Positions 2,336-48,200 of a DNA stretch of 64,000 bases are shown in pieces (the stretch's first letter is position 1; each line of letters opens with the position of its first letter). The notes under the pieces are model-generated. The model was not told the DNA's origin. It was given only the letters and a program-made list of their open reading frames with translations, and did no database searches. The stretch comes from a virus. The stretch covers positions 1 through 64,000 of IMG/VR virus record IMGVR_UViG_3300031952_000005; one strand, 5' to 3'. The position numbers and the translations under genes were made by a program.

Positions 2336-2602
2336 ATGAGAAAAAGAATCCCTTACAGAAAAAAAACCAGAAAAGAAAAATCAGTTATGCAAAAGTATTT
2401 TGAACATGCGTTAATTGCAGATGTTAAGTATGGTTTGTTAAAACCTGCTAAAAAACTAGTAGAATATTGTAAAGAAAATGACAAAATCATCATTAAAGAA
2501 CATGATGTAAAACATGTGCAAGATCATCTTACACCTGACTTTTTTAAATCTAAAATAGAAATTAAAAACTTTATTAGTTATGAACTACGAGGAGCATATT
2601 AA
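2336..2602 (+). CDS. Basic hypothetical protein
   Basis: 88 residues with a strongly basic N-terminus (MRKRIPYRKKTRKEK), Lys-rich throughout. The C-terminus overlaps the next gene by 23 bases. Composition suggests nucleic-acid contact, but no family is recognised. Confidence 0.6.
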   Translation: MRKRIPYRKKTRKEKSVMQKYFEHALIADVKYGLLKPAKKLVEYCKENDKIIIKEHDVKHVQDHLTPDFFKSKIEIKNFISYELRGAY

Positions 2603-3140
2603 GAATTTTAAAGTAGCAAATACAGAGTTAATGTCATATTTGCTAAGTAAACAAGGAGGTTTTGCACCTATGGTAACAGTTCTTGTGAAAAAGAATGAAG
2701 AGGTTAATGTTATGGCAATTCCTATTCCAGAACAGTTTTTAGATTCAGAACTTTCAAAAGACATGTTGGCAAAAACATTACCAAGTTTGTTTGATCATGT
2801 TGTAAAACAAGGTATGGAACCTATGTGTTTTTCATTTTCATCTGAAGCGTGGTTACGCAAAACACCAGAAGGTGTAAAAGAACTACCAGATGACTGGAAA
2901 GATTTACCTAAAATAGAATGTTTAATTTCTACTTATGAATCTAAAAATGATTCATCAATGGATATACACGAGATTGTAAGAGAAGGTAAGCTTGCAAATG
3001 AAAATGGTGAATTAATTGACGCAATTGTATTAAAACCTTATGATACAGGTGAAAAACAACTTGTATCCATAGAAGGCAGATTTACAGGATTATTTGATAA
3101 TTATTTAAAAAGTAAAAAAGATGAACAAACAGATTGTTAG
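2580..3140 (+). CDS. Conserved-looking hypothetical protein (186 residues)
   Basis: Begins MNYEEHIKNFKVANTELMSY. It has alternating strands and helices, a SFSSEAWLRKTPEG block in the middle and a Lys-rich C-terminus. No motif recognised. It overlaps both neighbours (23 bases upstream, 20 downstream), typical of this compact operon. It looks soluble and cytoplasmic. Confidence 0.65.
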   Translation: MNYEEHIKNFKVANTELMSYLLSKQGGFAPMVTVLVKKNEEVNVMAIPIPEQFLDSELSKDMLAKTLPSLFDHVVKQGMEPMCFSFSSEAWLRKTPEGVKELPDDWKDLPKIECLISTYESKNDSSMDIHEIVREGKLANENGELIDAIVLKPYDTGEKQLVSIEGRFTGLFDNYLKSKKDEQTDC

Positions 3141-3387
3141 TGTAAATTTTGATTTTTCAGAAAAGTATATAGATAGTAGTTTTAGAACATTACATGCAAC
3201 AGTAAGATTGAGTATAGATGTAAAAAGTAAATCTTTTAACATTACACCAAATGAAACAAAACAAGATTTTGTGTTTATTAATACTTCAAAACATAATTGG
3301 CAAATGTGGATTGCAATAGCAAAAGCAATTCAAACAGCAACTGAGTTTGGAGTACAGTTTTTAGAAGATGTTGATTTAAAAGTATAA
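3121..3387 (+). CDS. Small hypothetical protein
   Basis: 88 residues, MNKQIVSVNFDFSEKYIDS. Mixed beta pattern followed by a helix (MWIAIAKAIQTATEF). Overlaps the upstream gene by 20 bases; the next gene follows 3 bases after the stop. No family recognised. Confidence 0.6.
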   Translation: MNKQIVSVNFDFSEKYIDSSFRTLHATVRLSIDVKSKSFNITPNETKQDFVFINTSKHNWQMWIAIAKAIQTATEFGVQFLEDVDLKV

Positions 3388-3390
3388 ACA

Positions 3391-3591
3391 ATGGCACATC
3401 ATAGTGAAGATTTAGTAGGTAAACGTGTAGAGTTAATATACATGAATGACAATCAAGCACCTGAACCTGGTACAAAAGGTACAGTTACAAAAATAGATGG
3501 CATAGGTACAATACATGTCAACTGGGATAATGGTAGTTCTCTTGGATTGATTAAAGATGAAGATATATTTAAAGTAATACACGATGAGTAA
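3391..3591 (+). CDS. DUF4314-like small protein
   Basis: 66 residues. The sequence GKRVELIYMNDNQAPEPGTK followed by TVTKIDGIGTIHVNWDNGSS fits the DUF4314 pattern (GxRVELxxMxDxxAPxPGTxGTV-x-D-x-G-x-hxWDNGSSL), a small SH3-like barrel known from phages, plasmids and conjugative elements. Function of the family is unknown. It overlaps the next small gene by 8 bases. Confidence 0.8.
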   Translation: MAHHSEDLVGKRVELIYMNDNQAPEPGTKGTVTKIDGIGTIHVNWDNGSSLGLIKDEDIFKVIHDE

Positions 3592-7942: not shown

Positions 7943-8668
7943 ATGCATCATAATAATTTTTATGTTTATTTACACAGACGTTTAGATACAAATGAAATAT
8001 TTTATGTTGGAATTGGTAAAACACCACCTCCACATAAAGTTTGGAAACATAACACAAAATATTCCAGAGCTTTTGAAAAAACTAAAAGAACTCAATTTTG
8101 GAAAAATATTATTTGTAAAACAGATTATTTTGTTGAAATATATTTTGAATCTGAAAGTGAAGCAGAAGTTAAATTAAAAGAACAAGAGTTAATATTGTTA
8201 TATGGTAGAAAATGTTGTGACAAAAATGGAACTCTTGTTAATTTTACATCAGGTGGTGACAGAAATGATGGTCCTAAAAATTATAACATAAAGATTATTC
8301 AAAAAGATCTAAACAATAATGTTGTAAAAATATGGGAACAACTAAAAGATATTGAATTAGAATTAGGTTATTTAAAAACTAATATTGTAAAATGTTGTAG
8401 AAAAAAACAAATTACAGCGTATGGATATTTTTGGGAATATGATAATGAATTGTATAAAGATAAATATTCTAGTACAGCAAGAAAAAAAACAACAAACAAT
8501 GGTGTGGGAATTGAACTTTTTGACAAAAATAATAAGTTATTAAAAACTTTTAGATCACAACAAGAAGTTGCTGATTACTTAAATATACACAGAACAACTG
8601 TTAACAGGTATTTAAACAATAAAAACAATAAAAATAAATACTTTACATTAAAGTATAGAAAATGGTAA
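7943..8668 (+). CDS. GIY-YIG homing endonuclease with NUMOD1 repeats
   Basis: 241 residues. The N-terminal GIY-YIG-type nuclease spans about residues 5-110: FYVYLHRRLDTNEIFYVGIGK for the paired motif, RTQFWKNI for the Arg block, and a catalytic Glu in SEAEVKLKEQELILLYGR, followed by LVNFTSGGD. Two NUMOD1-type DNA-binding modules follow: KIIQKDLNNNVVKIWEQ to YGYFWEY, and IELFDKNNKLLKTFRSQ with the helix-turn-helix EVADYLNIHRTTVNRYL. This architecture is that of free-standing homing endonucleases, which cut and spread into alleles lacking them. It has its own consensus host promoter and breaks the overlap pattern of neighbouring genes, both signs of an inserted selfish gene. Confidence 0.9.
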   Translation: MHHNNFYVYLHRRLDTNEIFYVGIGKTPPPHKVWKHNTKYSRAFEKTKRTQFWKNIICKTDYFVEIYFESESEAEVKLKEQELILLYGRKCCDKNGTLVNFTSGGDRNDGPKNYNIKIIQKDLNNNVVKIWEQLKDIELELGYLKTNIVKCCRKKQITAYGYFWEYDNELYKDKYSSTARKKTTNNGVGIELFDKNNKLLKTFRSQQEVADYLNIHRTTVNRYLNNKNNKNKYFTLKYRKW

Positions 8669-20340: not shown

Positions 20341-21144
20341 ATGAAAAGAACAGTAAATGGCATGATTGCCTATGGTAAAATGTTAAGTACAAAATTACCA
20401 GAAAGAACAAAAACGTATACTCCTATTTCTCACAAAGACGTTGTCAGTCGTGTGAGAACAGAAATTACTGCAGCAGGATATGTTATTACTGGCGAAGATT
20501 ACAAGTGCACTCAAGATGGCACTGTAGCAATTGGAAATTTTAAACTGAATTATAAAGCAGATCCAGATATTGAGTTGTCTGCAAACTTTATGAATTCATA
20601 TAATAAACAATATGCATTTAGATTCTCTCTAGGAGGATTGGTAAAAGTATGTATGAACGGTATGATGTTGTCAAACAGTAAGTTTGGTGCATATAAACGC
20701 GTTCACAAAGGAGCTGCAGATATACTTGCTGCTGGTAAAATAGCAGAGTTTATTAAAGATTCAGATGAATACTGGTCAACTTTAGTAGAACACAAAGAAA
20801 TGTTGAAAAGTCGCACTGTTACAAAACCAATTGCTTACATAATTCTTGGTAGATTATTCTTTGAACATGAACTATTAACTACTATGCAGTTAAACATGAT
20901 TAAGAAAGAAATAGAAAAACCAAGTTTTGAGTATAACGCAGATCTTGATAGTGCATGGGTGTTATATAATCACATCACTCTTGCATTAAAAGAAGCACAT
21001 CCTTCTACCTGGATGGATGATCAAGTAAAAATGCATGATGTATTTTGTGAAACATTTGGTATTAATACTTCTGATGGAGAAGATGAAGAAGACATATTGA
21101 TGGATATTTTAGAAGAAGAACTTGTAGATGATTTACCATTTTAA
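20341..21144 (+). CDS. DUF932-like protein with SSB-type acidic tip
   Basis: 267 residues. The core (ELSANFMNSYNKQYAFRFSL, VKVCMNGMMLSNSKFGAYKR, VHKGAADI) matches the pattern of the DUF932 phage/plasmid family (N-S-x-(N/D)-K-x-x-A-x-x, V-C-x-N-x-M, VHKG). The last 30 residues are acidic and end EELVDDLPF, identical in form to the C-terminal tip of bacterial SSB (DD(I/L)PF), which recruits repair and replication proteins. It starts at the polymerase stop, so it is translationally linked. It may serve as an ssDNA-coating protein or as an SSB mimic that captures host SSB-interacting proteins. Confidence 0.8.
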   Translation: MKRTVNGMIAYGKMLSTKLPERTKTYTPISHKDVVSRVRTEITAAGYVITGEDYKCTQDGTVAIGNFKLNYKADPDIELSANFMNSYNKQYAFRFSLGGLVKVCMNGMMLSNSKFGAYKRVHKGAADILAAGKIAEFIKDSDEYWSTLVEHKEMLKSRTVTKPIAYIILGRLFFEHELLTTMQLNMIKKEIEKPSFEYNADLDSAWVLYNHITLALKEAHPSTWMDDQVKMHDVFCETFGINTSDGEDEEDILMDILEEELVDDLPF

Positions 21145-21186: not shown

Positions 21187-21342
21187 ATGAAAGATTTTAT
21201 AACCATTCAGTATGCTAAAATCTGTGTAAGATTTAGTAATTCAGAACTTGACAAAAAAGAGATACTAAGAAGGTATCTTAAACGTTACCACAATATAAAC
21301 ATTAGTAAAACATGTATTAACAATAGATTTAGAGAATCATGA
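21187..21342 (+). CDS. Small basic hypothetical protein (51 residues)
   Basis: ATG 21187, TGA 21340-21342. Translation MKDFITIQYAKICVRFSNSE, then basic helices (ILRRYLKRYHNINISKTCIN). Its stop overlaps, as ATGA, the abandoned start codon of the kinase remnant at 21339, showing the original operon junction before the endonuclease insertion. Confidence 0.55.
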   Translation: MKDFITIQYAKICVRFSNSELDKKEILRRYLKRYHNINISKTCINNRFRES

Positions 21343-21348
21343 TAATAG
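21338..21348 (+). repeat. Direct repeat, left copy (11 bp)
   Basis: CATGATAATAG here and again at 21989-21999, 651 bases apart (a multiple of three). Each copy holds the stop of one gene and the ATG of the next. The repeats bracket the HNH endonuclease gene. Confidence 0.8.
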
Positions 21349-21389
21349 GTATTAACGGTAAAATTGGGAGTGGTAAGTTTGCATATTAG
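21339..21389 (+). pseudogene. Remnant 5' end of dNMP kinase
   Basis: A 16-codon reading frame, MIIGINGKIGSGKFAY followed by TAG. The first 13 residues match the start of the intact kinase at 21990 (MIIAIGGKIASGK) at 10 of 13 positions and contain a full nucleotide-binding P-loop. After the second Gly-Lys of the P-loop the frame runs into non-kinase sequence. This is best explained as the original kinase start cut off by insertion of the HNH endonuclease gene. Confidence 0.75.
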
Positions 21390-21408
21390 ATGTATATTTT
21401 AGTTTTAA

Positions 21409-21440
21409 TTTGCATTTTTAAATTTTTATATTTAAGTTTG
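21409..21440 (+). promoter_or_regulatory. Consensus Bacteroidota promoter for HNH gene
   Basis: TTTG (21409-21412), a 20-base spacer, and TAAGTTTG (21433-21440) fit the consensus exactly. The start codon of the endonuclease is 19 bases downstream. The minus-7 element lies within a perfect inverted repeat (21431-21449). Confidence 0.7.
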
Positions 21441-21449
21441 AAACTTAAA
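21431..21449 (+). repeat. Perfect inverted repeat over minus-7 element
   Basis: TTTAAGTTT-G-AAACTTAAA, nine-base arms around a single G, covering the promoter minus-7 box and likely start site. It could be a repressor operator or a homing recognition sequence. Confidence 0.7.
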
Positions 21450-21459
21450 CATAAGTATT

Positions 21460-21993
21460 ATGAAAGAACAATGGAAAGATATACCTGGACATGAAGGTGT
21501 TTATCAAATAAGTAACTTAAGTAAAGTAAAAAGATTAAAAGGAAAATGTTTAGCAAAAGCTGGTAAGTATAGAAATATTTCTGAAAATATACTTACTGCT
21601 TTTCCTAATAAAGCTAGATACAATTATTTATATATTAACTTAAATAATAATGGATTAAAACAATTTAGATTACATAGATTAGTTGCTCTAGTTTTTATAC
21701 CTAATCCTGATAATTTACCAGAAGTAAACCACATTGATGGTAATAAAGAAAACAATTGTATAACAAATTTAGAATGGTGTACTAATTTAGAAAATATAAA
21801 ACATTCCTATAAAATAGGAACTCATAAAATTAGAAAGAATGATGATGCGCCAAATACTAAATTAAATAGTAAACAAGTTATGGAAATAAGAAAAAAACTT
21901 CAAGAAGGATCTTCAGGTAGAAGTTTATCTAAAGAATATAATATAAGTGAAGGAATGATTTCATTAATTAAAAATAATAAATACTGGACATGA
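21460..21993 (+). CDS. NUMOD4-HNH homing endonuclease
   Basis: 177 residues. The NUMOD4 domain (residues 3-60) reads EQWKDIPGHEGVYQISNLSK, VKRL. The HNH core (about 65-125) is FRLHRLVALVFIPNP, EVNHIDGNKENNCITNLEWC and NLENIKHSY, with the paired His and Asn of the nuclease knuckle. The C-terminus (KLNSKQVMEIRKKLQEGSSG, SLSKEYNISEGMISLIKNNK) is a helix-turn-helix. This is a classic free-standing homing endonuclease. It is inserted at the 5' end of the dNMP kinase gene, is flanked by 11-base direct repeats and has its own host-type promoter. Its TGA overlaps the kinase ATG (ATGA), re-creating the original coupling. Confidence 0.93.
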   Translation: MKEQWKDIPGHEGVYQISNLSKVKRLKGKCLAKAGKYRNISENILTAFPNKARYNYLYINLNNNGLKQFRLHRLVALVFIPNPDNLPEVNHIDGNKENNCITNLEWCTNLENIKHSYKIGTHKIRKNDDAPNTKLNSKQVMEIRKKLQEGSSGRSLSKEYNISEGMISLIKNNKYWT

Positions 21994-21999
21994 TAATAG
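21989..21999 (+). repeat. Direct repeat, right copy (11 bp)
   Basis: CATGATAATAG, identical to 21338-21348. It contains the end of the HNH gene and the active kinase start codon. Confidence 0.8.
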
Positions 22000-22778
22000 C
22001 AATTGGAGGCAAAATTGCTTCAGGAAAAAATAATGTATGTGAGATTATACAGGATTTATGTAAAAAACACAAAGGACCATCTTTTGAACAAAAAGCTTTT
22101 GCAGGAAAGTTAAAAACAATTGCATCTTTACTTACAGGTATTCCTGTAGAGAGTTTTGAAGACCAAGAGTTTAAGAAAGCATTGTTAGGACCTGAATGGG
22201 GAACTGTAAGAACTAATCCTCTTAACGCAATTCCTGTGTTTGGAGATGTAAAGTTTCTTCATATGATGTCTGTAAGAGAATTTCTTCAAAAACTAGGCAC
22301 AGAGGCAATGCGTGATGGATTACATAAAAATGTATGGGTGAATGCTTTGTTTGCTGATTATACAAAACGTATTGTACATTATCCTTTAACAGAGGAACAA
22401 ATTGAATATAATAATAAACAAACAGGTCCTGTACCAAGCGTAAATGAAAAATTAGATTATCCTAACTGGGTTATTACAGACATGAGATTTCCTAATGAAA
22501 TGGATGCTGTAGAAGAAAGAAAAGGTATTACTATTAGAGTGGTACGTTACCCAGAAACAATAGAACAATCAAGAGGTCCAAAAAATGTTGAGACTATTTT
22601 ATTTGATCCAACAAATCAAAAACATATGGATTTATGGAAAGCAAATTGTTTAAGAATGCATCCCTCAGAAACAGCTTTAGATGATGCTAAGTTTGATTAT
22701 GAAATAATCAATGATGGTACAATGGAAAAACTTGTACATAAAGTGCGAGAAATTCTTATAAAAGAAAATATAATATGA
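21990..22778 (+). CDS. Deoxynucleoside monophosphate kinase
   Basis: 262 residues. P-loop region MIIAIGGKIASGKNNV; then FLHMMSVREFLQKLGTEAMR, HKNVWVNALFADY, NWVITDMRFPNEMDAVEERK (the DxRFxNE block of T4 gp1-like kinases), HPSETALDD and FDYEIINDGT. It phosphorylates dNMPs to dNDPs for phage DNA synthesis. The P-loop has Asn-Asn after GK where relatives usually have Asp-Thr or Ser/Thr, which may reflect recoding after endonuclease insertion. ATGA overlap upstream; 4-base overlap with the phosphatase gene. Confidence 0.9.
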   Translation: MIIAIGGKIASGKNNVCEIIQDLCKKHKGPSFEQKAFAGKLKTIASLLTGIPVESFEDQEFKKALLGPEWGTVRTNPLNAIPVFGDVKFLHMMSVREFLQKLGTEAMRDGLHKNVWVNALFADYTKRIVHYPLTEEQIEYNNKQTGPVPSVNEKLDYPNWVITDMRFPNEMDAVEERKGITIRVVRYPETIEQSRGPKNVETILFDPTNQKHMDLWKANCLRMHPSETALDDAKFDYEIINDGTMEKLVHKVREILIKENII

Positions 22779-33302: not shown

Positions 33303-36300
33303 TTATTGATTACGTTTCATAATATCTATTCTCCAATTTGGATCTGCAATGTCTCTAAAGTTTTTAATACCAGTAAGATCGTAAAAATCTTTCATGATTT
33401 TTGCATCACCTTTCTCGTAACCACCAGCTTGTCTCATGTAGTGAGAATCTTTCCAGATTTCATATTTCCATCCACCATCATCTTCATCTGGTTCTTCTGA
33501 ACCATTAATTATCATTGATAGCATTAAGTTTAACATGTGACTACTTGTTGCCATTATTGCGTTTAACTCTCGAGTGTATGCAGTAAATGTTGTAAAGTTT
33601 TTAATATATTCTTTAGAACCTCCTCCAACAGGAAACATTGAGTTTGTTTCACCTTGCACACCCCATAAAACTCTGATTGCATTACCTTCTAAGAAAGAAA
33701 GTTCTTCATCATCATCATCTTTTTTACGAACATATACTAGTGCCATCATACTTAATACAGTAAATAACGCCATCATTATTGCATCGCGTTTTGCTTGATT
33801 AACTTTTCTACTATAAAAGTCATTCATTTTACTTTTGTTAGAACGCATTATGTGTTTGCTACCTAGTACTACATGTTTTGCAACTTCTCCTGGACCATAG
33901 TATTTTACTGCAGTAGCAAATGCTCTCCAGTATCCAACAGCAACTTCGCCTGCTTCATAGTTAGGTCTAAGATATCCAAATCTATTTAACATCTGAGGTA
34001 TTACATATTTTCTAAAGAAAAATACAAGTTTACCAGTTACAGTTTCTTCAAATGCAGTTTGATCTGATTTAGCATAGTTACCCTGTGCTCTACGCATTTC
34101 AGAATAAATAGTATTTCGCAATCTGTTTTCATCTTCTTGTGTATATTCTACATCAGCACGTCTTACAATAGCACCACTGGTATCTTTAATATATACTTCA
34201 TGTGCAGGTATAACTTCCTCTTCTCCTTCTGCATTCTTTCTGTATACTTTTTGACCATTTGCATCAATATCAAATGTTTTATATTTGTAACGATTTAGTA
34301 TAGCATACATTACTGTTACACCTATTTCAGTGTCACCTTTATCTTGTAATAAATATCCAAGTTCTTGTACATTCATTGCTTTTGCTAATAATCTTCTTGA
34401 GCTGTCACCAGTAACTTCATCAACGTATTTTAGATAATCTTTTTGCATTGGATTAAATAATCTGTACATCATGGTAGATTTACTAATGTCACTAACTCTA
34501 CCCCAGTCACCAAAATAGTTTTTGATAAATGCGTTTTCACCAAGTCCATATACTTGTCCTTTTGCCCACATGTAGTCTTCTTGACTGTAGTGATCACTTT
34601 CTAATCCACCTGCAGCAATGAATGCTTGTACATTACCAGATACGTAGTTCTTAGTCTGGTTAACAACATCAAATCCAATTCTGATAAAACTGGTATACGA
34701 CATTACATTATTTACAATCTTGGTAAGTTTTCTATTAAGATATGTAAGTGACTGATCTTGTGCATTAATAAACTTTCTCCTTTCAAATTTAAGTATAGAA
34801 ACCACATTATCAAGTTCTTTAAGACGTTTGTTCATATCAATAGGTCTACCATCTTTATCTGTTACAACTGCTTTGTTTTGAATAGACTTTTTTAAATCTT
34901 CAGATAGTAATTCTATACCTGCAATAAATATATCTCCTACTGGTGCAATTTCTTGCATTGCAATATTATAATGTGCTTCAGTAGTCCATTTAATTAAACA
35001 TCCTATTGCGTCTTTTGATTGCATGTTCTCAGGAAGTTGATCATTAAATCGCTGTCTAATTCTACCACCATTATCACCAAATGTATTATTTACAGTATCT
35101 TGTACACTATGCGTTTTCCATGCTTTGTCAATGTATTGCTCCCATCTATTTTTTGCACCTTCAATTACACCTTCTCTTGAGAAGTTCTGCATTGTAGTTG
35201 ACGCAAATCCAGGAACCATGTATCCAATTTTTTTACCATCTGTTCTTACTTGCAGGTCAAAAAACATCTTAGTTAGTTTATTATAGAAATTGAACAACTG
35301 TGGATCTTGCATTATGTTCATGTATTTACCACTAATATTTTCTGCTTTATAAGCAGAACGATCAATTTGATACACATCATCAGCATCTTTGTATATACCT
35401 TTTGGCATTGGTATACCATCAGGTGATTTTAAAAAGTCTGGATTATAAGATGATTCCTTAAGTTTTTTGATTTTGTATTTTGGATGAGGCAATGTTTCCA
35501 TAAATTCAGCAGCAGCACTAGGTGCAGGAAGTCTCTGATAGTTAAATGATTTTGCAACCATTCTTTTATAAATGTCTTCTTCAGTATCTAGTATACTTTT
35601 ATACGCTTCTTCATGAGTTAGATTGTACCATTTTTGAAATTCTTTTTCGTGTATGTCAAACTGATTTTCTTGGTCAATAACAGCTTTTGTTGCTTCAGTA
35701 ATTAAAGCAGCATCTTTTAAATCTTTTGCTTTTTCTAATGTTAGTTTTGCATTTACTAGTAATTTCTTAGAACTATACAATGCTTTTATTTTTACATCTC
35801 TTATTCTAAGATATGATTTAGTCAACTGCATTGACGCAATTCTGTTAATCTGTTCTTTTATAGAAGTAGATCTTTGTTTTTCTTCTGGAGTTAACTTACT
35901 CATATCAAAAGTCTTACCTTCAAATATAGACTCAAGTTGTGCTTCTATATCAGCAATGTTTTCAGCATCTTCTTCTGTAACAAATTGTGATTGAAGTATA
36001 CCTGCTACTTTGTGAGGTTTTAATATTTCTGAACGCTGTTTTATTAAATCAGCAACAGCAGAATCAGAACCAAATATTTCTGCGCGTTGTTCGTATAAAT
36101 CTGATAATACAGTGTACCATCCTTTTACCAGTTGACCATTAACTTCTTTGTCAGAAGTAGGAACAGTAACCTGGTTATCTTCAAACCATTTTTTAAGTAA
36201 CTCAGGATGCTCTTGAAACTTTGCAATTGCATCTGCTTTTTTTCTTTCAAAGTATGCTATACTTGTATCAAAATCAAAAAGATTATTAAACTCTTCCATG

Positions 36301-39215
36301 TATACAGCATACTGTGGATTAATCTTTTTTGCTTTGTTTCTTAATACACGAATGTCATCTTCTAATTCTTGCAGTCTATCAAAGTCATTGTCATCAAGTA
36401 ACACTTCATTTCCTTTTCCTACTTGGAATGTAATTTGTTGAATTTCAAAATATTTTTCCTGCAGTTCATTTCTAATGTCTTCAGGCATTAACTCTTGCAG
36501 TTTATAAAATGATTCATTAAATGGTAAAGATGTATTATATATTAACCATCTAATTCTTTCTGTATTAAACGCTTCTTTTTCTTTATACTTGTCAAACAAC
36601 TGTTGTTTAGCAGCATCATGTTCAGGAGTGCCAAATTTAGTATTTACCTCACTTACAAGAACACGTATATCAGCATTTAATTCTCTTAGTTTTGAAGTGT
36701 ATTCTTTATAGGTGTTTTCATATTGCTGACTGTATGGTTTATTAAAAGTAAGATTTCTTCTATCTTCATATTCACCAGTGTCTTTATTGAAAACTTTATA
36801 ATCTCTCCACTCAGATATTGCATCATTTAATTCATCAACAGTAAATCTTTTTAATAACTCATCTCTGTCTTTATCAAATTGCATAACAGCAAGGTCATTT
36901 TGCATATTGTATACAGCACGTGCTTGTCCATTTTTGTACATTTGTGTCATTGCAGATATTGCAAGGTCACTATTAGATGCAGATGCAATACCTTGGTCTA
37001 ATAATAATCCTGAAAATAATGATGTACTATTATAAATATCTTGTGAACCAATGTACACTTGTGAATTTGGATCAGTAACAGCATTAATATATTTCTTTAA
37101 TGCTTCTACGTTAAATTCTATTCCAGTAGTAACATACGCGCGTAAACGTAATAACTCAAGTTCTTTACGTTGTATATTGTCTAGTAGATTTTTATTAGTA
37201 ACATTACCTTTTGTAACTTTTTCTACAAACTCAGGTGATATTAATGATATTAAACTTCCTTTTAATTGCTTGAATAATCCTGCTGCTTTACCAGCTTTCA
37301 TATCCTCTAGTTCTTTTTCTAGTTGTGCAATTTTTGGTAAAAGTGCTTCACGTGTTTGTTTATTTACAGAAGAAAACACTGCTTCACCTGGAGTCATAAG
37401 TATCTTTACACCGTTTAGTAAAAATGCCTCTCTAAAATTAGACTCAATAGTTAAGTGATTTAATTCTAGCCGAGTTAATTTCTGATATACAGGACTGCTT
37501 AATGAAATATTATTTTCTGGATTTTTACTTGCGTCGTTAATAATGTTTTTTAATATTTCAACAATATCGCGTAGACCTTTGGATCTTGAAAATGCTTGAT
37601 GTATTTGTGTAGTATCTGTAGTAAAAAAATCTAGTGTGCCATTTCTAAATGATTTAATTGCTTCTTCTGACAAATCAGATAACTTTTGTAAGTCTTCTTC
37701 AGCAGCTGCTAGTATATTAAAAAAGTTATTTTGATATGCTTTATCTGTATTAGATGACTTTTCAACATACTGATTAAACGTTGTAAGAGTTTGTCTTCTT
37801 GTTGCAAGTAACTCGCGTAATGGTGTAGTGTTCTTACCTTGAGAATCTAACTCGTTAATTCTATTACGAATTTCTTCAATCTGTTGTTTATACGCTTCTT
37901 TTAATGCATCCATTATTCTCTGGTTTTCTTCTGCAGTAGGAGTAAACTCTAGAGTCTGAAAGTTTTTTAAAAGTTTATCTTCAACTTCTTTGTTACCAAT
38001 TGGTATTTCTTTATCGATGGCATCACGATATTCTTTTAATCTTCTAGCAGTTTCTAGTGGTTGTGTAACCCAGAATCCTGTAGTATTAGATGGAGTTACT
38101 GCGTATGTTGCATAGTCCCAGTAGTTATTACCTTGAAATATATGTAAAACCTCGCCTAAGAATTTGTTGTTAGCATCTGTCTGATACATAAGAGCAACAA
38201 TCTTACTTTCTTCTGTAACAAGTCCTATTTGACCAAGCATGTTTTCATATGCTTTTAACTGCAGTGTCCAGTTATCGTATGCTGTTCTATTTAAATTTAC
38301 ATTTTCTAATTCACCAGCCATTCCTTTCTGACCTTTTACAAGATAAGAAGTATTAGCAAGATTTTCAAATGCTCTATCTCTATCTACTTCAACACCAAAT
38401 GGTGTAACAGTGACCATGTTGTGAACTTTTTTAGTCTTAAAGTCAAACACTTTTACTTTACCAGAGTTACTGATAAGAAGTAAATCTAAACGACCAACTA
38501 CAAAGTTACCATTAGCATCTTTACCAGCAAGTGTAATTTCAGGTAATATAATATAACCTTCATCTTTGTTTATAGATACATGTTTTGCAACGCGTGTTGC
38601 CATGTCAAATATCTTTTCTTTAGATAGTTCTTCAATATAAAATGGAGTTCTTTCTAAATACTTCTTGTATGTTTCATCAAAAAATTCTTCAGTAAGTACA
38701 ACTTCAATACTTGAGTTTTTCTTTAATGCTTCTATCTGTGCTTTCTCTAACACATTATGCATAAATGTACCAAACAATTTAAATGCTTCATACTTTAAAG
38801 GATCACCTTTAAACTCAGAAGAACCAATAAATGATGTTACAGAATAAGAAGGTAGTGTATTTCGACCATCTTTGCGTAATTCAATATTCTTTTCTAGAAA
38901 CGCTTGATAGTCTCTGTTGTTTTGCATTAACTTGCCAATTGCCTCACGTTGTGCATTGTTTGCAAATAAACTAATATTTGCTAGAGTAGCTGCTTGTTCT
39001 TTAGTTCTTTCCAGTTTAAATTCATCAGAGTGTCGAACATGTCGCTCATCAGTTTCTTCAACTTTCATACCAGCAATAAGAGCTTTTGCTTCATCAACTG
39101 ATGGAATAATATCTTGATTTAATGTAACAGCAGTTCTTGCAAGAGCTTCATTACCTTCAAATGCAGCAACAAGTGCTTTGAACATTGGATCATTTATGTT
39201 AATACAATTTGTCAT
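33303..39215 (-). CDS. Virion megaprotein with N-terminal RecB-like nuclease
   Basis: 1970 residues, the second giant gene downstream of the RNA polymerase-type protein. An N-terminal segment shows RecB-like nuclease motifs in order: FMHNVLEKA (H153), a conserved Glu in ILPEITLAG, VGRLDLLLI (D244), VKVFDFKTKK (D258-x-K260) and LQLKAYENML (Q319-x3-Y323). The middle 1000 residues are mostly coiled, charged helices. The C-terminal third has compact blocks (MNVQELGYLLQDKGDTEIGV, GKLVFFFRKYVIPQMLNRFG) and one membrane-like segment near residue 1815 (MMALFTVLSMMALVYV) followed by KKDDDDEE. Probably packaged in the virion and ejected with DNA. Confidence 0.8.
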   Translation of the reverse strand: MTNCININDPMFKALVAAFEGNEALARTAVTLNQDIIPSVDEAKALIAGMKVEETDERHVRHSDEFKLERTKEQAATLANISLFANNAQREAIGKLMQNNRDYQAFLEKNIELRKDGRNTLPSYSVTSFIGSSEFKGDPLKYEAFKLFGTFMHNVLEKAQIEALKKNSSIEVVLTEEFFDETYKKYLERTPFYIEELSKEKIFDMATRVAKHVSINKDEGYIILPEITLAGKDANGNFVVGRLDLLLISNSGKVKVFDFKTKKVHNMVTVTPFGVEVDRDRAFENLANTSYLVKGQKGMAGELENVNLNRTAYDNWTLQLKAYENMLGQIGLVTEESKIVALMYQTDANNKFLGEVLHIFQGNNYWDYATYAVTPSNTTGFWVTQPLETARRLKEYRDAIDKEIPIGNKEVEDKLLKNFQTLEFTPTAEENQRIMDALKEAYKQQIEEIRNRINELDSQGKNTTPLRELLATRRQTLTTFNQYVEKSSNTDKAYQNNFFNILAAAEEDLQKLSDLSEEAIKSFRNGTLDFFTTDTTQIHQAFSRSKGLRDIVEILKNIINDASKNPENNISLSSPVYQKLTRLELNHLTIESNFREAFLLNGVKILMTPGEAVFSSVNKQTREALLPKIAQLEKELEDMKAGKAAGLFKQLKGSLISLISPEFVEKVTKGNVTNKNLLDNIQRKELELLRLRAYVTTGIEFNVEALKKYINAVTDPNSQVYIGSQDIYNSTSLFSGLLLDQGIASASNSDLAISAMTQMYKNGQARAVYNMQNDLAVMQFDKDRDELLKRFTVDELNDAISEWRDYKVFNKDTGEYEDRRNLTFNKPYSQQYENTYKEYTSKLRELNADIRVLVSEVNTKFGTPEHDAAKQQLFDKYKEKEAFNTERIRWLIYNTSLPFNESFYKLQELMPEDIRNELQEKYFEIQQITFQVGKGNEVLLDDNDFDRLQELEDDIRVLRNKAKKINPQYAVYMEEFNNLFDFDTSIAYFERKKADAIAKFQEHPELLKKWFEDNQVTVPTSDKEVNGQLVKGWYTVLSDLYEQRAEIFGSDSAVADLIKQRSEILKPHKVAGILQSQFVTEEDAENIADIEAQLESIFEGKTFDMSKLTPEEKQRSTSIKEQINRIASMQLTKSYLRIRDVKIKALYSSKKLLVNAKLTLEKAKDLKDAALITEATKAVIDQENQFDIHEKEFQKWYNLTHEEAYKSILDTEEDIYKRMVAKSFNYQRLPAPSAAAEFMETLPHPKYKIKKLKESSYNPDFLKSPDGIPMPKGIYKDADDVYQIDRSAYKAENISGKYMNIMQDPQLFNFYNKLTKMFFDLQVRTDGKKIGYMVPGFASTTMQNFSREGVIEGAKNRWEQYIDKAWKTHSVQDTVNNTFGDNGGRIRQRFNDQLPENMQSKDAIGCLIKWTTEAHYNIAMQEIAPVGDIFIAGIELLSEDLKKSIQNKAVVTDKDGRPIDMNKRLKELDNVVSILKFERRKFINAQDQSLTYLNRKLTKIVNNVMSYTSFIRIGFDVVNQTKNYVSGNVQAFIAAGGLESDHYSQEDYMWAKGQVYGLGENAFIKNYFGDWGRVSDISKSTMMYRLFNPMQKDYLKYVDEVTGDSSRRLLAKAMNVQELGYLLQDKGDTEIGVTVMYAILNRYKYKTFDIDANGQKVYRKNAEGEEEVIPAHEVYIKDTSGAIVRRADVEYTQEDENRLRNTIYSEMRRAQGNYAKSDQTAFEETVTGKLVFFFRKYVIPQMLNRFGYLRPNYEAGEVAVGYWRAFATAVKYYGPGEVAKHVVLGSKHIMRSNKSKMNDFYSRKVNQAKRDAIMMALFTVLSMMALVYVRKKDDDDEELSFLEGNAIRVLWGVQGETNSMFPVGGGSKEYIKNFTTFTAYTRELNAIMATSSHMLNLMLSMIINGSEEPDEDDGGWKYEIWKDSHYMRQAGGYEKGDAKIMKDFYDLTGIKNFRDIADPNWRIDIMKRNQ

Positions 39216-39218
39216 ATC

Positions 39219-42200
39219 TTATAAACATTTAAGTTTTTCTATAATTTCTTGATTTGTCATTCCTGTTGTTTTCAAATTAGCAGCATAAGCAGCAAACTCA
39301 GTAGAGTAAGTATCAAATGATTTACCAGTAGCACTCTGATCATAAAAATATTTTACCATATCAAAGGTAACATTAATATTCTGAATATCTAAATCCAATT
39401 TTGATGGTGTAGTTGTTTCAAAATAATCAACATAATAATCAGTAGGATCACTTTTTAAAGTTTCTAATGATGTTTTTAAGTTGTTTATTTTAGTTATAAT
39501 ATTTTGTTTTTCTGCAGCATTAACAGCTTTAAAAACAAAGTTATCTACAGAACCTGTTTTTGTGTAACCATCTTTATCTATTTTAATAGTGTATTCTTTA
39601 TTTTTAGCTGCTCTACCTTTTACAATTGCATAATCAGTATATCTTTCAATTTCTAAAACTTTAATTTTATATTCAGAAGAATTATCATCATTGTAAACTG
39701 TAAGAATGCTACCCACAGTAGTTTCAGTTGCTCCTGTAAGTTGTTGTCTTAATGATTCAAGTTCTTTATTAATTTTTTCATTATTAGATTTAACAGTATT
39801 ATATTTTTCTTCAGCTTTTAAAAAATTATACGCTTGTTTAATAGTGTCAAAATCTTTTTGTTCAATTTTATCTTGTAGACTTCTTAATGAAACACCTTGT
39901 TTTAATTGATCTATTGTATATTCTTTAAAAATGCTTTCTAAAGTTAAAATAACAGGTGTTTTAGGTTTAACAGAATAATCTTCAAACATGTCTGCAGTTA
40001 AACCTTGAGTCATTTCTTCTGCAACATCTACTTCTGACACATCAAGTCTTGCTTTTTTATTAACCAAACTTGTGTAGCGTTTTGATTCTGCAACACTGAA
40101 TCCAATAGGACTTATTGTATTTACTGCAAGTTCCATTGGAAGTGCCACATATTTTGCAGCATTACCTACTGTTTTAAATTCACCAGTACCAGATATTGAA
40201 TTGATAACAGATTTACCAAAACTTTGATTATAAATTTGACTGTCTACACCTTGTAACAAAAATGTAGTTTTACCCATTCTTAACATAATAGGAAACTTGT
40301 ACTTGTTCTTTTCATCTTTGTCTTTAAAGATATTTAGTTTTTCACCAATTGCTGCAATAGCACCACTTGTTGTTTCTTCCATCTCATTAGCACCTTTCAT
40401 GTTAATGATAATTTCTTCAAGTTTTTGATCAGCTCCAAATATAGTATCTGTTAGTAAGAAAGATTTTTGTGTTGGACTTAGTGTAAGACCTAATACTTTA
40501 CCAACTATTTCATTTGCAATTGCTGTACGTTCATTAACATCAGTAGTTTTAAAATTAATATTTTTCATAAGTTTAGAAGAAAACCCTTCTGACTGATTGA
40601 ATGAAATAGTATTACTCTTTTTATTAGATGTAGATTTTATCTTTTTATTACCAACTTCTTTTGATGCACCATATGCCATCAGTACAAACAAGTCATCAAA
40701 TAACTTGTACACATCTTCTTGTGTAGCAGGATTGTCAGGAGTACTAATGTAATCTTGTATTGCATCAACTAATTCTTTTTTATTACCTTGTGCATTATCG
40801 AGTATTTTAATAAACTCTTCTATGTTTTTAGATAATGGTATTTGTAAATCTGCTGGCAAATACTGTAAGAATGAACCTGATTTATATTGCAAACCTGTTC
40901 TAGCAAGTTCATGATAAAATAATTTTTTCATAAACAAGTTCTCTTGTTGCAATAAGAAATAAGCATCATCAGCTATGTTATCAGCTAACTCACCAGCAAT
41001 CTTTGCTTTACTTACCATCTCTAAAGTTTTTTCTTGAATGTTTTCTCCATCAGTAGTAAGTACTGTTGATTTACTATTAGACACTTTTAAGAACTGTAAA
41101 AACCTATTTTCAGGATATTCAGTCTTCATTGCATCTAGTTCTTTCTCAATTGAATTTGTAAACCATTGATCTGCTTTAAATGTATTAATTAAGTTTTTAT
41201 CATCTTCATCAAAACTTGCTTGCATAGATGGATTAGTACTTTTTCTACTACCAGGTACAGATATCTGATACTTACGTATAGCAATAAAACTTGTAATAAG
41301 TCTTGCAATATTTGATGAGTCTGTATATACAGTTTCAAATGCATTTTTAATTGGTTGAAAGAAAAGAGTTCTTTCTAAAAATATTTTACCTGCTTGTTCA
41401 TCTAAATCATTCATTGCATCTGCTAATGGAACCCATGCTTGTTTACCATCAAATAATTTATCACTTGATTCTTTAGTAAACATAGACTCACCATTACGTA
41501 GTTCATTGATACTTCTTTGTAATTTATCAAATGATATAAAAGTTGGATTAATTTTCTTATACAAGTTTACTAATGAACCTGCGTTTCTAATACCCCATGT
41601 TTGCTGTGTTTGTTCTTTATATAACTGTAATAATATTACTTTCTGTGCTTCATTAGATAATAGAGTAGTTACACCTTTTATATGAGAAGATACAGTAAAT
41701 CCAATATCTTCAACAGTAAGGGTGTTACTTTCTAGTCTACTTTCATTAAGAGCATTCTGTTGAAAATCAATCATCAAGTTTTCCTTGTTGATTTTAACAT
41801 TACCAGGAAATGAATCTTGTGTAATTAATCCTGCATCTTTTAGTTCATTTAATAATGCTGCATTACCATTGTTTTTGATAAAGTCTTCCATTTCAGTTTT
41901 TAACTCATTAGTCAAAAACTTGAACTCAGTTGATATAGAGTCACTTACTGCAAAACGAGATGCTTGTACTTTATTAATTGCATTGTTAATTTCTGGAATA
42001 AAGTTAAATCCAAATGCAAATGCGGGATCTAATCCAATACCTATCATTGCAAGAGTAACTCCTGTATTTATTTCATTCATTCCAAGTGCTGCTGGAATAG
42101 GTTTTTTCATACCATCTGCAGCAATACCTAATACAACACCATTTAACATGATTACTCGTTGTCCATTTTTGTTTATTACACCAAATTTAAAAAGATTATT

Positions 42201-45200
42201 TTGTGTAACAACTGTACTACCATCTGATTGTAAATCATTACTTGCATATTTCCAAATTACATTATCAGAATTAAGTTCTAATTCATACTGACTTGCAAGT
42301 GCCAAGAACTTCTGCAATGATGCAGCAATACCAATCATGTCTTTGTATGCAGCACCTAATGCTTTAGATTCAATAACTGATGTAATTGTGTTGGGATCAG
42401 ACTTAGGTCCAAAGTTATCAAGATCTCTACCATATCCTGTTACAATACTTTCAAAATATTCTGTAGAAGAAGTCTCGTGTATATACAAGTTTTTAAATAC
42501 TGCTTCGTTAGATAGTATATCTATTTTTGCTTGTAAGTTTTTATTTTGATGTATTGGTAGTACTGACAAATGATTTACAATATTACTATCAAAGTTTGCT
42601 TGGTCTACTGGTAAACCATATTTTTCAAATACTTGCAGTGCTGCTTCTATACGTAATGAACCATTTGCAAAAGTTCTTAATCTACGTTTTTCATCACGTG
42701 TCTTTTTAAGATCTTGATATGTTTCATCAAGTTCAGTTTTTAAATCAAAATGTTCTTTACCAAATTTTCTACGATTTGCTTTTGCAAGATAATCATCAGG
42801 ATCATTTTCTGTATCTTCAATAGATTGAACAAATGCTTGTTTAACTACTTTTTTTTCAGATTTTATTTGTTTAATATCATCTTGTAAATCTTCTTCATAA
42901 CTTTCGAGTTCTTCATATATACCTGAAGTCATTGCTTTAATATAGTCTTCTTGAGTGTATCCCATTGCATACATAACTTCTAGAGCATTTGCACTTACAG
43001 AAAAATTATTTGTTTCAGTTAATGCTTTTCTTTTTGCACTGATCAACTTTCTAAAGTTTTCATCATCTGCCCTGTAATGTATGTACTCAATAAACTTACC
43101 TTGTGCAGGAGATTTATAAATGTTATAGTTACCATATTTTGCGTAGTCACCAACAGCATTTACATAATGAGCAAATGTTTGACCATAAAGTGAGTCAACG
43201 TCAAAGTCAGATCCAGCAAGTAAGTGTATAAATTGTGGTACAATAATACTATTTATGTGAGAACTATCTATATAATCTACCACTTTTAATACAATCATAG
43301 AACGTTTATCCTCAGTAGGAATACGTAATGCAAACATTTCACGAAGATTTTCCATAAAAAAATCTTCTTGTTGTTGACTTCTAAAAAATTGTTTTGGTAA
43401 TATACATTCTACAAAGTATTTTTTACTAACCAGTTCTCCTGCATCATCATATTCTGCTTCTATACGTACACCTAATGGTCTTACTTTTGTATTACGATAT
43501 TTTCCTGGATTATTTCTGTATTCTTCAGTTGTTATTACTTCACCATTTTCATCTTCTCTTACATCATAACCAAATGATGATACGTGAATGTTTTTAAATC
43601 CAGAACCTTTTTCATCTGTTATATGCTTACTATAAAGCGAAAAGAAATAATATTCTAGCATACTTCTTATTCCAGGTAAGTTAGGACTATGAACTGGTTT
43701 ACCAAAAGCATCAACATCAAATAGTTTTAATACTGAAGATGGTGCATTCTGTTGCTCAAGATTTTCTCTTATTAAATCAAATACTTTACCTAAATCAAAG
43801 TCTTCACCTTTACGTAAAAAGTGCTGTAACGACTGCAGATTAGAATCAGAAATATCATAAAGTGACTCTTGATATTTAAGAAGACTGTCACCTAATTCAT
43901 TCATTGCTTTTCTTTCAGTAGAAGACATAATTGTACCCGCCTCTGCATGACGTTTGTTTGCAAGTTCTTCTATGTAATTTAAATCTGCAGGTAATAATAT
44001 TTTACCTTGTACAGAGAATCGTGCAGTGTCATGTACACCAGAAGTTTCTACTTGAAGATACTTGTCTTCATTGTTTACTTTTAATGATGATATATTTAAT
44101 GGTAAGTAGTCATTATCAGCATGTGCAAAATAATCAACAGGAAGTTTTGTAGCATTTTTAGATGCTTCAGTATCCATGATTTGATCAATATTATGATACT
44201 CCATAGAATTTAAAATTTTATGCAATTTTATTCTATTTGGTTCATATTTTGCATGTATCTCAAGATATGTTTTTTGAATTTGTTGTTCTAATTCTTCAAT
44301 ATTACTGCTTACACTACCATCTTTGTTTATCTTATGATGTTCTTGTATTTGTTTACGTAAGGCGTATATAGTCATGTATTTGTCATGCAAATTATCATAT
44401 ACTTGATCACGAGTCATTCCTTCAGGTATAATTAATATACTTACATCATTTCTATCAATGTAACTTTCTGATTGTTTGTGATAAATATTACGAGAAGCAG
44501 TAACAGTCTTTTTAGGATTGTTTACTACTTTGTTTTTTTCCATTTTGAGTACTTCTTCTTCAGTAAGTTCACGATAATGTTTTGCAATTATAGAATGCAA
44601 TATCTCAGGAGTAAGTCTTCCTAATGATTCATGCATATCTGCTTGATGAAACAATGATGAAATACTCTGACCATCAAATACTTTTTGATTTAGTTTAAAG
44701 TTCTCATAGATTGTTTTACGTATTGTTTCATCTGGAATTTGAATATCATCTAGTACTTCTTGTGGAGAATAAAATGGACCATAATTAGGATGTTCTTCAT
44801 TAATATATCCAAACAATGTGTTAAGATAAGCAACTGTGTGTTTACCTTCTTTCATTGTACTACCAGATGCAAGAAACTTTTTATTACGTTTAGTAGAATC
44901 AATACCATCTTTAACGTTCATTGCTTTATCACCTGTATACAATTCATTTACCATTAGTGAATTATACCACTGATTGAAAAAGAAATCTGCTAGTAATCCA
45001 TTTAAATCAGCACGAGATTCTAATACACCTTGTACATTATAGTTTGGTTTTGTATTTGCATAAACAGAAGTAGTACTTACTGCAAGATTGTTATCAATTT
45101 TTAAAGTATCAGCAATAAGAGAAGATGTTAAGTATCTTAACGATGGTTGTTTTGTTTCAAACACTACAGGATACCCTTCTTCTTCAATAACTTTTCCTGT

Positions 45201-48200
45201 TGCAGGATCTTTCTTAATTGCTTTTACAGATTCTTCTTTTTCATTTACAACACCAAGTTTTTTTAAAGTGTTAATGTATGTGTTTAGTTCTTCTAACGCA
45301 AAATCATTTAATCCTTGACGTAAATCTGCAAGTGTACTTTCATCAATGTCTTCAAAGGATGCTTTGTCATCTTTAGCATACTCTAGTAATTTACTAGTAA
45401 GTAACTCATTTTTAGCATTTGCAAAAAAGTATGGTAAGTAATTAAAGTTATATGCTCTTAAATTTTCACTATCAACAGTTGCTCTTGTTTTATCATCCTT
45501 GCTTAGTACACCATTGTAGTTATTAATAAGTTTGTTAGAACTACCATCATCAAAGTTTTTTTTGTTAACCTCTCTTCTGTTCCATTCTTTTTTGATTCTG
45601 TTAAATTCTTGTTTTACTTTTCCTTCTAAATCATTTACAATTTTTAAATTCTTACCATCTTTTACAAGACCATTTTTATCAGCGTATGTTTGATAAAGAG
45701 ATGTAATTAAAAAGTTTGTTTGAGATGCCTCAAGAGTATCAAATGTACGAAGGAATGTCTGGATACTTGTTTTAGGAGTAGTTATGTTACCATCTTCATC
45801 AACAACAGTTTCATATGAAGAAACAGTTGTTCTTTGTAAAAATGATAGTATACTCATTACATGGAATGATTGTTTATCAAGTTTACCAAAAGTTTTACCT
45901 TCCTTGTATGTCTGGTTATTCATCTGAGCAACTCCACCAAACAATGATATGTTAGTATTGTCTAATAGTAACTTAGCAATTGTTGCTTGTTTACTAGTTT
46001 TGTCTTTTAACAAGTCGCCAAATAATGGATTGTCATTATAAAAGTCTTCTAAGAAATCATCATAGTATGGATCAGTTCTTAATGTATCTTTTAATCCTTC
46101 TCTTCTTAATGATTGACCTGTTAAAATTAATGGTGTATATTTCGTATAACGATACACAGGTTTACCAGCAGCATTACGAAATACACTTGGTAAATCAGTT
46201 GCATCATATTTTAATATGTATTTAGCAAATCTAGTAGAGATGTTAAAGAATGCACCTAAGTTTTTATTATTTTCATCAAGTGTTTTTCCAAATGCGTTTG
46301 AACTAATAGACTCATTTATTACTGGATCATATATTGATTTTATACTTCTAAAAAATTGTTTTTCAAGATACGCTTTATCAGCAATCATTGCAGAATTTGT
46401 AGCGTAATGATCTAGTGTCTTCTTGTCTATGTTTTCAAGAGCACCGTTAAGATTGTCAATTTTATCTATTGCAAGAATAGACATTCTGATTAATGATTTT
46501 GGTAATGTAATGCCTACATCTTTAAATGCATTATACAATTCAAATGTCATAGTTTCCAATACTGTATTTGCATTTAATAAACTACCTATAAGTATTTTTT
46601 TATTAATAATGTTTTCAGATAAAGTAACAAGTCTTTTTACTGCAGTTACATATTCAGGATCAGTTCTTTTTTTAGCGTGTGTTGTTATCATAGATGATAC
46701 CATGTCACGTCTTTTCTTTAATGCATCTGCTTGAAGAACTCTATCTGTTAATGTAAAACTTTCAATATTATTACCTGCTTCTTCAATTTCTGCAGTTTTT
46801 AAACGAGCATTTAACATTACATATTCTATTTCAGTACCATGAAGTACATCTATAAACATATTATATAATTCTTTGTTTGTTGATGGATTACCATTGGTAT
46901 CCATTCCTGTGTACTCTTTTAACTGATTGTAAATTGCTTGTAAATCAGCAGCTGCATCAAAATTACCATCTTCTTTATAGATTTTAGCAGTAACTTGCAT
47001 ATTGTTTATAATCTCATCTACTTTGACATCAGCTGATATTTTTAGTAATGAACCAAAAATACTTTCTCCATCAATTACTCTTGGAAATAGTATACCAGAT
47101 TCTGTATCTTCTTTCTCATAACTTATAATACCAAGAAATCTTCTTAATTGTCTTGGAGCTGAGTCAAGTCTGTTGTGCTCACCAAATCCTTCATCAATAT
47201 TTATATCATCAGAAATTTCTTCACCATCTTCAAAGTCTTCATCAACTTGTGACTTTTTTTCATTTTCACCTGCTAATTCTTTTAACAGTGTATTTTTATC
47301 AATTGCTGTACCAGTACCATCCAGTAATGAATATAACTCTTGAGTTTTTTTCTTAACTAGTTTTTTTAATACTTCAACAGATACTTGTCCAAGATTATTA
47401 TCTAAAGGATCTGCTTCATATTGTTTTACTTTATTTGGTAATACTTTACCCTTGTATGCAGCATTGCCTGAGTTATTTATATCATTAACAGTTTCATTAT
47501 TTAACCTTGCTCCTAACATAAATCTATATTGAGAAACAAGATTGCTATATTGTTCAAGAACTTGTTTTTCTTTACCAGGATTCTTTTTAATCAATTCATC
47601 AAGATTATATACTTTTTCAAGTAACAATGTTTGCGCTGTTTTAAATTTTGCATCAAAAGTTTGTCCAGATGTATTTTCAATAACATATTTTGTCATCATA
47701 TATACCAACTGATTTTGTTCAGCTTTTAATAATGTTGTAGGTGATTGACTAACGCCAGATGATGAATACTTGTCGTTAATAATTTTTTTCAATCCAGGTA
47801 TTAACTCATATGCTGCTTGTCCATCATATAATTCAGATTGTATTTGTTCTGATTTATAGTATCCTCTTTTGATATTCTTGTATGTACTGTCAACTAGATT
47901 ACTTCTTTGAGTAAACATGTCAATCAGTTTTTTTAGTAACTCAAATAATTTTGCTACAAGACCTTGTGGTTTTGTATTTTTATTCATGTAGTTTTGAAAA
48001 CCATCTGCAAGAATTTCTTCTGCTTGTAACTGAAACATTTTATCATACTCATACACATAGTTTTTTTCACTTGCAAATTTCTTTAATGCTGCAGGTGTAA
48101 ATGCACTCTTGTGTTTTTTATTAGATGATACTGCATCAATTAATCTTGAACGTTGTTCTGGTGTCATCAAGTATCTAAACACACCATGAAATGCCTCGTG

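Follow-up and report, generated by a model that had tools for sequence, protein, structure and literature searches.

A homing endonuclease gene within the start of a phage dNMP-kinase gene and a replacement gene end that appears to travel with it

The interrupted kinase start of a crAss-like phage

The window analysed here is a stretch of 64,000 nucleotides from a 105,464-base (105-kb) viral record, IMGVR_UViG_3300031952_000005. The terminase, portal and major head protein of this virus match PHROG profiles, the terminase being nearest to those of crAss-like phages, and an HNH homing endonuclease gene (HEG) lies within the start of its dNMP-kinase gene. The locus comprises the following features:

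21187..21342, + strand: small upstream open reading frame (51 aa), whose TGA stop overlaps the fossil kinase ATG
21339..21377, + strand: fossil native kinase 5' end, MIIGINGKIGSGK, followed by FAY and TAG; resembles native starts
21378..21404, + strand: left end of the insert (TTTGCATATTA...-like), resembling the left ends of GIY-YIG cassettes
21409..21440, + strand: HEG promoter of Bacteroidota type, presumably, TTTG-N20-TAAGTTTG; the same motif occurs in eight of nine 5'-kinase cassettes
21460..21993, + strand: free-standing HEG of 177 aa with NUMOD4 and HNH_3 domains (Pfam, PHROG)
21990..22028, + strand: replacement kinase 5' end, MIIAIGGKIASGK, with Walker A kept and a 4-nt overlap with the HEG stop
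22029..22124, + strand: likely co-converted tract, kinase residues 14-45, nearest to the HNH carrier L015
21990..22778, + strand: functional dNMP kinase of 262 aa (Pfam DNMK, phrog_139)

The HEG scored above the Pfam gathering cut-offs for both NUMOD4 (4.6e-11) and HNH_3 (7.5e-8) and matched phrog_59 (3e-50), while the kinase read from 21990 matched DNMK (1.6e-9) and phrog_139 (3e-41). The stop codon of the HEG, at 21991-21993, overlaps the kinase ATG at 21990. The equivalent TGA/ATG overlap at the end of the small upstream frame is the original translational coupling, and comparable upstream frames terminate at the kinase ATG in relatives too. A first-pass annotation of this DNA had placed the ATG of the abandoned start at 21339, its 13 codons at 21339-21377 before FAY-TAG, and the active start at 21990, and all of these coordinates proved correct. 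It had also reported that the two starts agree at 10 of 13 residues despite many base differences, and that two copies of the repeat CATGATAATAG, at 21338 and 21989, are separated by 651 bases and each contain an ATGA stop/start overlap. Both statements hold, and a direct count gives 13/39 differing and 26/39 shared bases. Its further inference that the operon coupling had been rebuilt exactly stands for the window but does not extend to other carriers, in which the overlap ranges from none (a 1-nt gap) to 53 nt. The flank-similarity score of the window duplication (47) exceeded those of all 1500 mismatched upstream/downstream pairs (maximum 45) and the same fossil layout is met independently in other phages, so the duplication is not due to chance.

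The motif TTTG-N20-TAnnTTTG, which we take to be the Bacteroidota-type promoter consensus, has a chance expectation of about 0.05 per kb (Markov simulation) and was seen in eight of the nine cassettes examined. At 21378-21404 the HNH insert of the window opens with the kind of left end seen in the unrelated GIY-YIG cassettes of L117-L122, although the HNH cassette of L015, which is 90% identical, does not have it; possibly, one HEG family has taken the place of another at this kinase site. Elsewhere in the window, the start of the frame at 7943-8668, FYVYLHRRLDTNEIFYVGIGK, resembles a GIY-YIG endonuclease, and an ORF-by-ORF search of the window revealed no significant nearby duplicate for this frame and its neighbours. 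Two huge frames on the minus strand (33303-39215 and 39219-51263; 1970 and 4014 aa) have no PHROG match, and their sizes are within the range of crAss-like virion RNA polymerase proteins.

Empty sites, repeated insertion and the source of the new gene end

The kinase comparison set consisted of 80 related loci from IMG/VR. Approximately 70 insert-free relatives have a single kinase start that reads like the fossil, most commonly as MIIGINGKIGSGKDT, and the downstream-type start is not the norm. A second P-loop start was detected, besides the window, only in L014 and L046, both carriers of GIY-YIG endonucleases, and no HEG-less relative in this set has a second short upstream start. The first-pass annotation had named two findings that would refute it, namely the same short upstream frame in phages without the HNH gene, or kinases that normally begin as the downstream copy. 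Since HEG-less kinases begin fossil-like and second starts are confined to carriers, both fail. Presence/absence polymorphism of the HEG at one exact site is thus met among related genomes. In L015 the same HNH gene occupies the same junction with the fossil shrunk to ATGATAA, and in L066 the last 36 HNH codons, a C-terminal remnant, precede an intact kinase and represent the scar of a cassette loss.

Pattern and protein scans located GIY-YIG HEGs at the identical nucleotide in L116, L117, L118, L119, L120, L121 and L122/L123, that is, in at least seven phages other than that of the window; HNH and GIY-YIG enzymes together occupy this site in at least eight phages. All of these GIY-YIG carriers have the recipient's own P-loop codons stranded upstream, each ending with AAG-TTTGCA. 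Of 41 distinct natives, 35 encode the P-loop lysine as AAA and 6 as AAG, in contrast to AAG in 8/8 distinct fossils, which places the insertion boundary inside GGNAA^. The upstream DNA of L118 and L120 is 99% identical, yet their fossil P-loops are only 85% identical and their cassette variants differ, suggesting that these close relatives acquired their inserts separately. In the GIY-YIG cassettes of L014 (2990-3004) and L129 (3230-3253), the restored ATG lies inside the C-terminal Ile-Trp codons of the endonuclease (ATATGG), in another frame.

Comparison of diverged carriers indicates where the new kinase start came from. Identities over the upstream 200 nt, fossil, HEG, replacement P-loop and next 60 nt were 57/64/95/97/62% for L117-L119, 55/74/93/100/63% for L121-L122 and 54/74/97/90/66% for L118-L119. 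Overall, identity is 90-100% in the HEG and in the replacement P-loop, whereas the fossil and both flanks are at 54-74%; high identity starts past the fossil and ends directly after the replacement P-loop. Because the HEG and the replacement are near-identical between carriers with diverged fossils and flanks, we conclude that the replacement codons travel with the HEG. For the HNH cassette only two full carriers are known (the window and L015), with replacement P-loops just ~70% identical, so that the GIY-YIG types and the phage UPF_BP1 give the stronger evidence of P-loop transfer. The window kinase itself is a mosaic, with residues 1-45 nearest to L015 and residues 161-262 81% identical to L001/L002, the kind of mosaic that co-conversion is expected to leave.

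In Salmonella phage UPF_BP1 (L274), P22 gene 10 is interrupted by a NUMOD4/HNH gene, and P22 (L281) represents the empty allele. The two phages are identical over 300/300 nt upstream and over all 93 nt of the 31 fossil codons. The new gene 10 start is located within the HEG 3' end (53-nt overlap), and from there the gene 10 5' end is 70% identical to P22 over the first 93 nt, then ~80%, and 100% from nt 270. The foreign segment is nearest to E. coli P22-like phages (~84%), and the restored gene 10 has 472 codons, the same number as in P22. Such a pattern is the signature that a cut at codon 31, repair from a foreign donor and rightward co-conversion would leave, although cutting data are lacking. 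The claim that the cassette brings its own replacement exon, made originally from the window alone, is thus borne out by both the diverged-carrier comparison and this empty-site comparison. The deposited start of UPF_BP1 gene 10 appears to be 108 nt too far downstream (record positions 20965-21073), the true start being inside the HNH gene.

Homing model and rival explanations

We consider it very probable, in the absence of cutting, co-infection or expression data, that these loci carry an intron-less homing cassette in which the HEG comes with a replacement 5' end for the gene that it targets. The encoded nuclease is inferred to cut an uninterrupted dNMP-kinase gene at its conserved P-loop codons, and repair off the carrier genome would place the HEG at the cut. 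The recipient's first 13 codons are left upstream as a fossil, and a divergent 5' end is supplied with its ATG at or inside the last codons of the HEG, both of which are seen directly in the carriers. Because the supplied end brings a new ATG, a full-length kinase would be made from it, presumably by translational coupling to the HEG. The split fossil half-site and the divergent replacement would no longer be cut, which implies self-immunity, while homology of the fossil left flank and kinase body to new recipients would allow re-homing to the same nucleotide. Such re-homing is shown by repeated insertion in diverged backgrounds, and the L066 scar shows what cassette loss leaves behind. Mirror-image cassettes bring a replacement 3' end instead.

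The first-pass annotation had further proposed that recoding of the downstream copy destroys the cut site. Replacement P-loops differ from the nearest native at 9-12 of 39 nt, as outliers with respect to natives, which differ from each other at 1-8. Over the last 21 nt before the insertion point, the replacement is no more divergent than natives are from one another. Immunity through recoding is therefore plausible and only partly supported, since these 21 nt beside the junction show nothing out of the ordinary; it has not been demonstrated, and cutting itself is inferred. Splitting of the native site by the insertion may matter more.

HEGs commonly ride introns, and a spliced intron- or intein-like element could in principle join the native start to the kinase body, leaving the downstream P-loop incidental. 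However, in searches for a group I intron neither the window region nor any of 11 related loci had an Rfam intron match, in agreement with the intron-less insertion proposed earlier. The fossil frame stops at TAG three codons past the insertion point, and the downstream copy is a complete in-frame start onto which splicing would double the P-loop. We regard a spliced element as practically discounted. The duplicated stretch in the window is just 39 nt, with 26/39 bases shared, and this would suit an ordinary free-standing HEG whose arrival by illegitimate recombination also duplicated a little of the kinase start in tandem, followed by drift and without any travelling exon. Against it, replacement and HEG alike are 90-100% identical in diverged phages, in contrast to a fossil that tracks the recipient. 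In UPF_BP1 the fossil matches P22 at 93/93 positions, whereas the new copy is 70% identical and the DNA is foreign up to nt 270; a fossil that is identical beside a new copy that is foreign rules out drift after duplication. What remains of this explanation is very unlikely.

Homologous exchange between phages could also have ended near the HEG, which would then have no causal role, the fossil being a by-product. Phage nuclease genes do occupy exchange boundaries (PMC10448857), and the mosaic kinase of the window points in the same direction. On the other hand, one insertion nucleotide shared by many backgrounds and two nuclease families is not predicted by passive exchange, and we find this account no less improbable than the tandem duplication. 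The homing cassette thus remains the preferred reading.

Related cassettes and known systems

In L007 and L008 (HNH) and in L029 (GIY-YIG), the cassette is located at the kinase 3' end, with the replacement tail 5' of the HEG and what is left of the native tail 3' of it. In other genes, the 5' form was found in an IMP dehydrogenase/GMP reductase (IMPDH) gene (L232) and in a gene without a Pfam match (L129), and the 3' form in a DUF1064 gene (L109) and a PriCT_1 primase-like gene (L223). Among 123 distinct HEG neighbourhoods, nine including the window outscored all 1500 mismatched pairs. Of the genes other than the kinase, those of L232, L129 and L223 lie beyond this null. The L109 duplication comes from the first neighbourhood test and was absent among the leading matches of the mismatched-pair test, which served as a permutation null. 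These counts give no frequency estimate, because the searches over-sampled kinase carriers and GIY-YIG relatives.

A variant termed type B was observed in L121, L122 and L123, representing two phage backgrounds, and a search for more yielded none. Its replacement P-loop contains a stop codon and a 5-nt insertion (L121:3084-3160, with the same position in L122 and L123). The leader MKKENKKHP(I/V)NLIGINGRIGSG reads into TAG and the kinase frame picks up 5 nt later, with no ATG, GTG or TTG start in that frame ahead of codon 22. At the junction, GGT-TAG-GT-AAA, the take-off codon GGT equals the landing codon GGT and the stop occupies the A site. The leader, hairpin and GGTTAGGTAAAGAC form a 65-nt stretch, in which a 16-bp hairpin ends 2 nt 5' of the take-off codon. 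Hairpin energies are -20.2 and -22.0 kcal/mol (z -3.8 and -4.3), and 0/5000 synonymous recodings fold as stably (z -7.2); the hairpin is built with codons that the window phage seldom employs, CTC (0.6%), GGG (1.2%, twice) and AGG (2.2%). Matched take-off and landing codons, a stop after take-off and a 5' stem-loop, as in T4 gene 60, are met in all three loci. A hop would produce NLIGINGRIGSGKDT, whose IGINGRIGSGKDT part is the native sequence of L050. A -1 frameshift was considered and is disfavoured, since it would add Leu-Gly and break GxxxxGK, in contrast to the native sequence yielded by the hop. Hop-pattern matches in bacterial genomes had no kinase nearby.

Type B appears to depend on a 5-nt hop of the ribosome across TAG with a selected hairpin before it, the bypass being inferred, and the extra 5 nt at the insertion site could also block cutting. 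It remains possible that these phages merely have a dead kinase. A wider reading is that replacement-end homing is general and largely unrecognised in phage genes, and that type B independently evolved a gene-60-like 5-nt hop (GGT over TAG to GGT, with a rare-codon hairpin) whose extra nucleotides would disrupt the cleavage site, with the native protein recovered through the hop; this we offer tentatively, as a possibility that falls somewhat short of what we would assert.

The closest precedents are the fungal mitochondrial mORFs (Allomyces atp6; Glomus atp6/atp9/cox2/nad3), in which an intron-less HEG comes with a foreign replacement C-terminus (PMC3630166). As in those, the HEG of the window lies in a host gene without an intron, between a relic of the native terminus and a foreign replacement terminus, and the replacement DNA is diverged while the protein is conserved. 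Unlike the mORFs, the window cassette replaces the N-terminus (the C-terminal form occurs at the same kinase in L007, L008 and L029), the phage cassettes are mostly N-terminal and place the new start codon at or within the final codons of the HEG, and HNH and GIY-YIG enzymes share one site. The T4 MobA/gene 60 insertion is likewise a coding-region HEG insertion compensated at translation, by a 50-nt bypass (PMC5009743; PMC2988022), whereas the type B gap is 5 nt, the gene end is replaced without splitting the protein, and the window cassette involves no bypass. T4 free-standing HEGs such as SegF achieve resistance through co-conversion of flanking sequence (PMC12724721); the phage cassettes also swap the recipient flank for presumably resistant donor sequence without an intron, although their HEG is inside the target coding sequence and leaves a fossil gene end. 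In Aeh1, mobE similarly interrupts the enzyme gene nrdA without splicing and the protein is made in two pieces (PMC2988022), in contrast to the single full-length protein restored here through a replaced end. Searches of open PMC full text brought up no account of phage N-terminal replacement cassettes, subscription literature being outside the scope. The principle is already known for C-termini in fungal mitochondria, and the phage-wide 5' form and the hop variant appear to be new.

If correct, the model means that a selfish endonuclease with neither intron nor intein can settle in the codons of a gene that are most conserved and keep this gene alive via a replacement end. It would account for HEGs abutting genes, for mis-called gene starts such as that of UPF_BP1 gene 10, and for mosaic phage gene ends. 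The layout recurs in phages that are not related to each other, one of them close to the classic laboratory phage P22, and with P22 and UPF_BP1 as a pair the idea can be tested directly in a well-established system. Type B is a possible second case of an HEG combined with ribosomal bypass and bears on the origin of the T4 gene 60 arrangement.

HEG neighbourhoods were also inspected in 16 phage-collection records, with clear flank duplication only in UPF_BP1. The kinase/HNH cluster of Enterococcus AL2 (L265), and likewise Polaribacter Danklef (L266), had suggestive annotation, but neither has a duplication; Escherichia phage HZ41 has an HNH gene downstream of gene 10 with no evident duplication. 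In Staphylococcus phage IME1318_01 (L272), the protein encoded at 2495-3418 is annotated as a dUTPase, yet its N-terminus includes an in-frame HNH endonuclease region.
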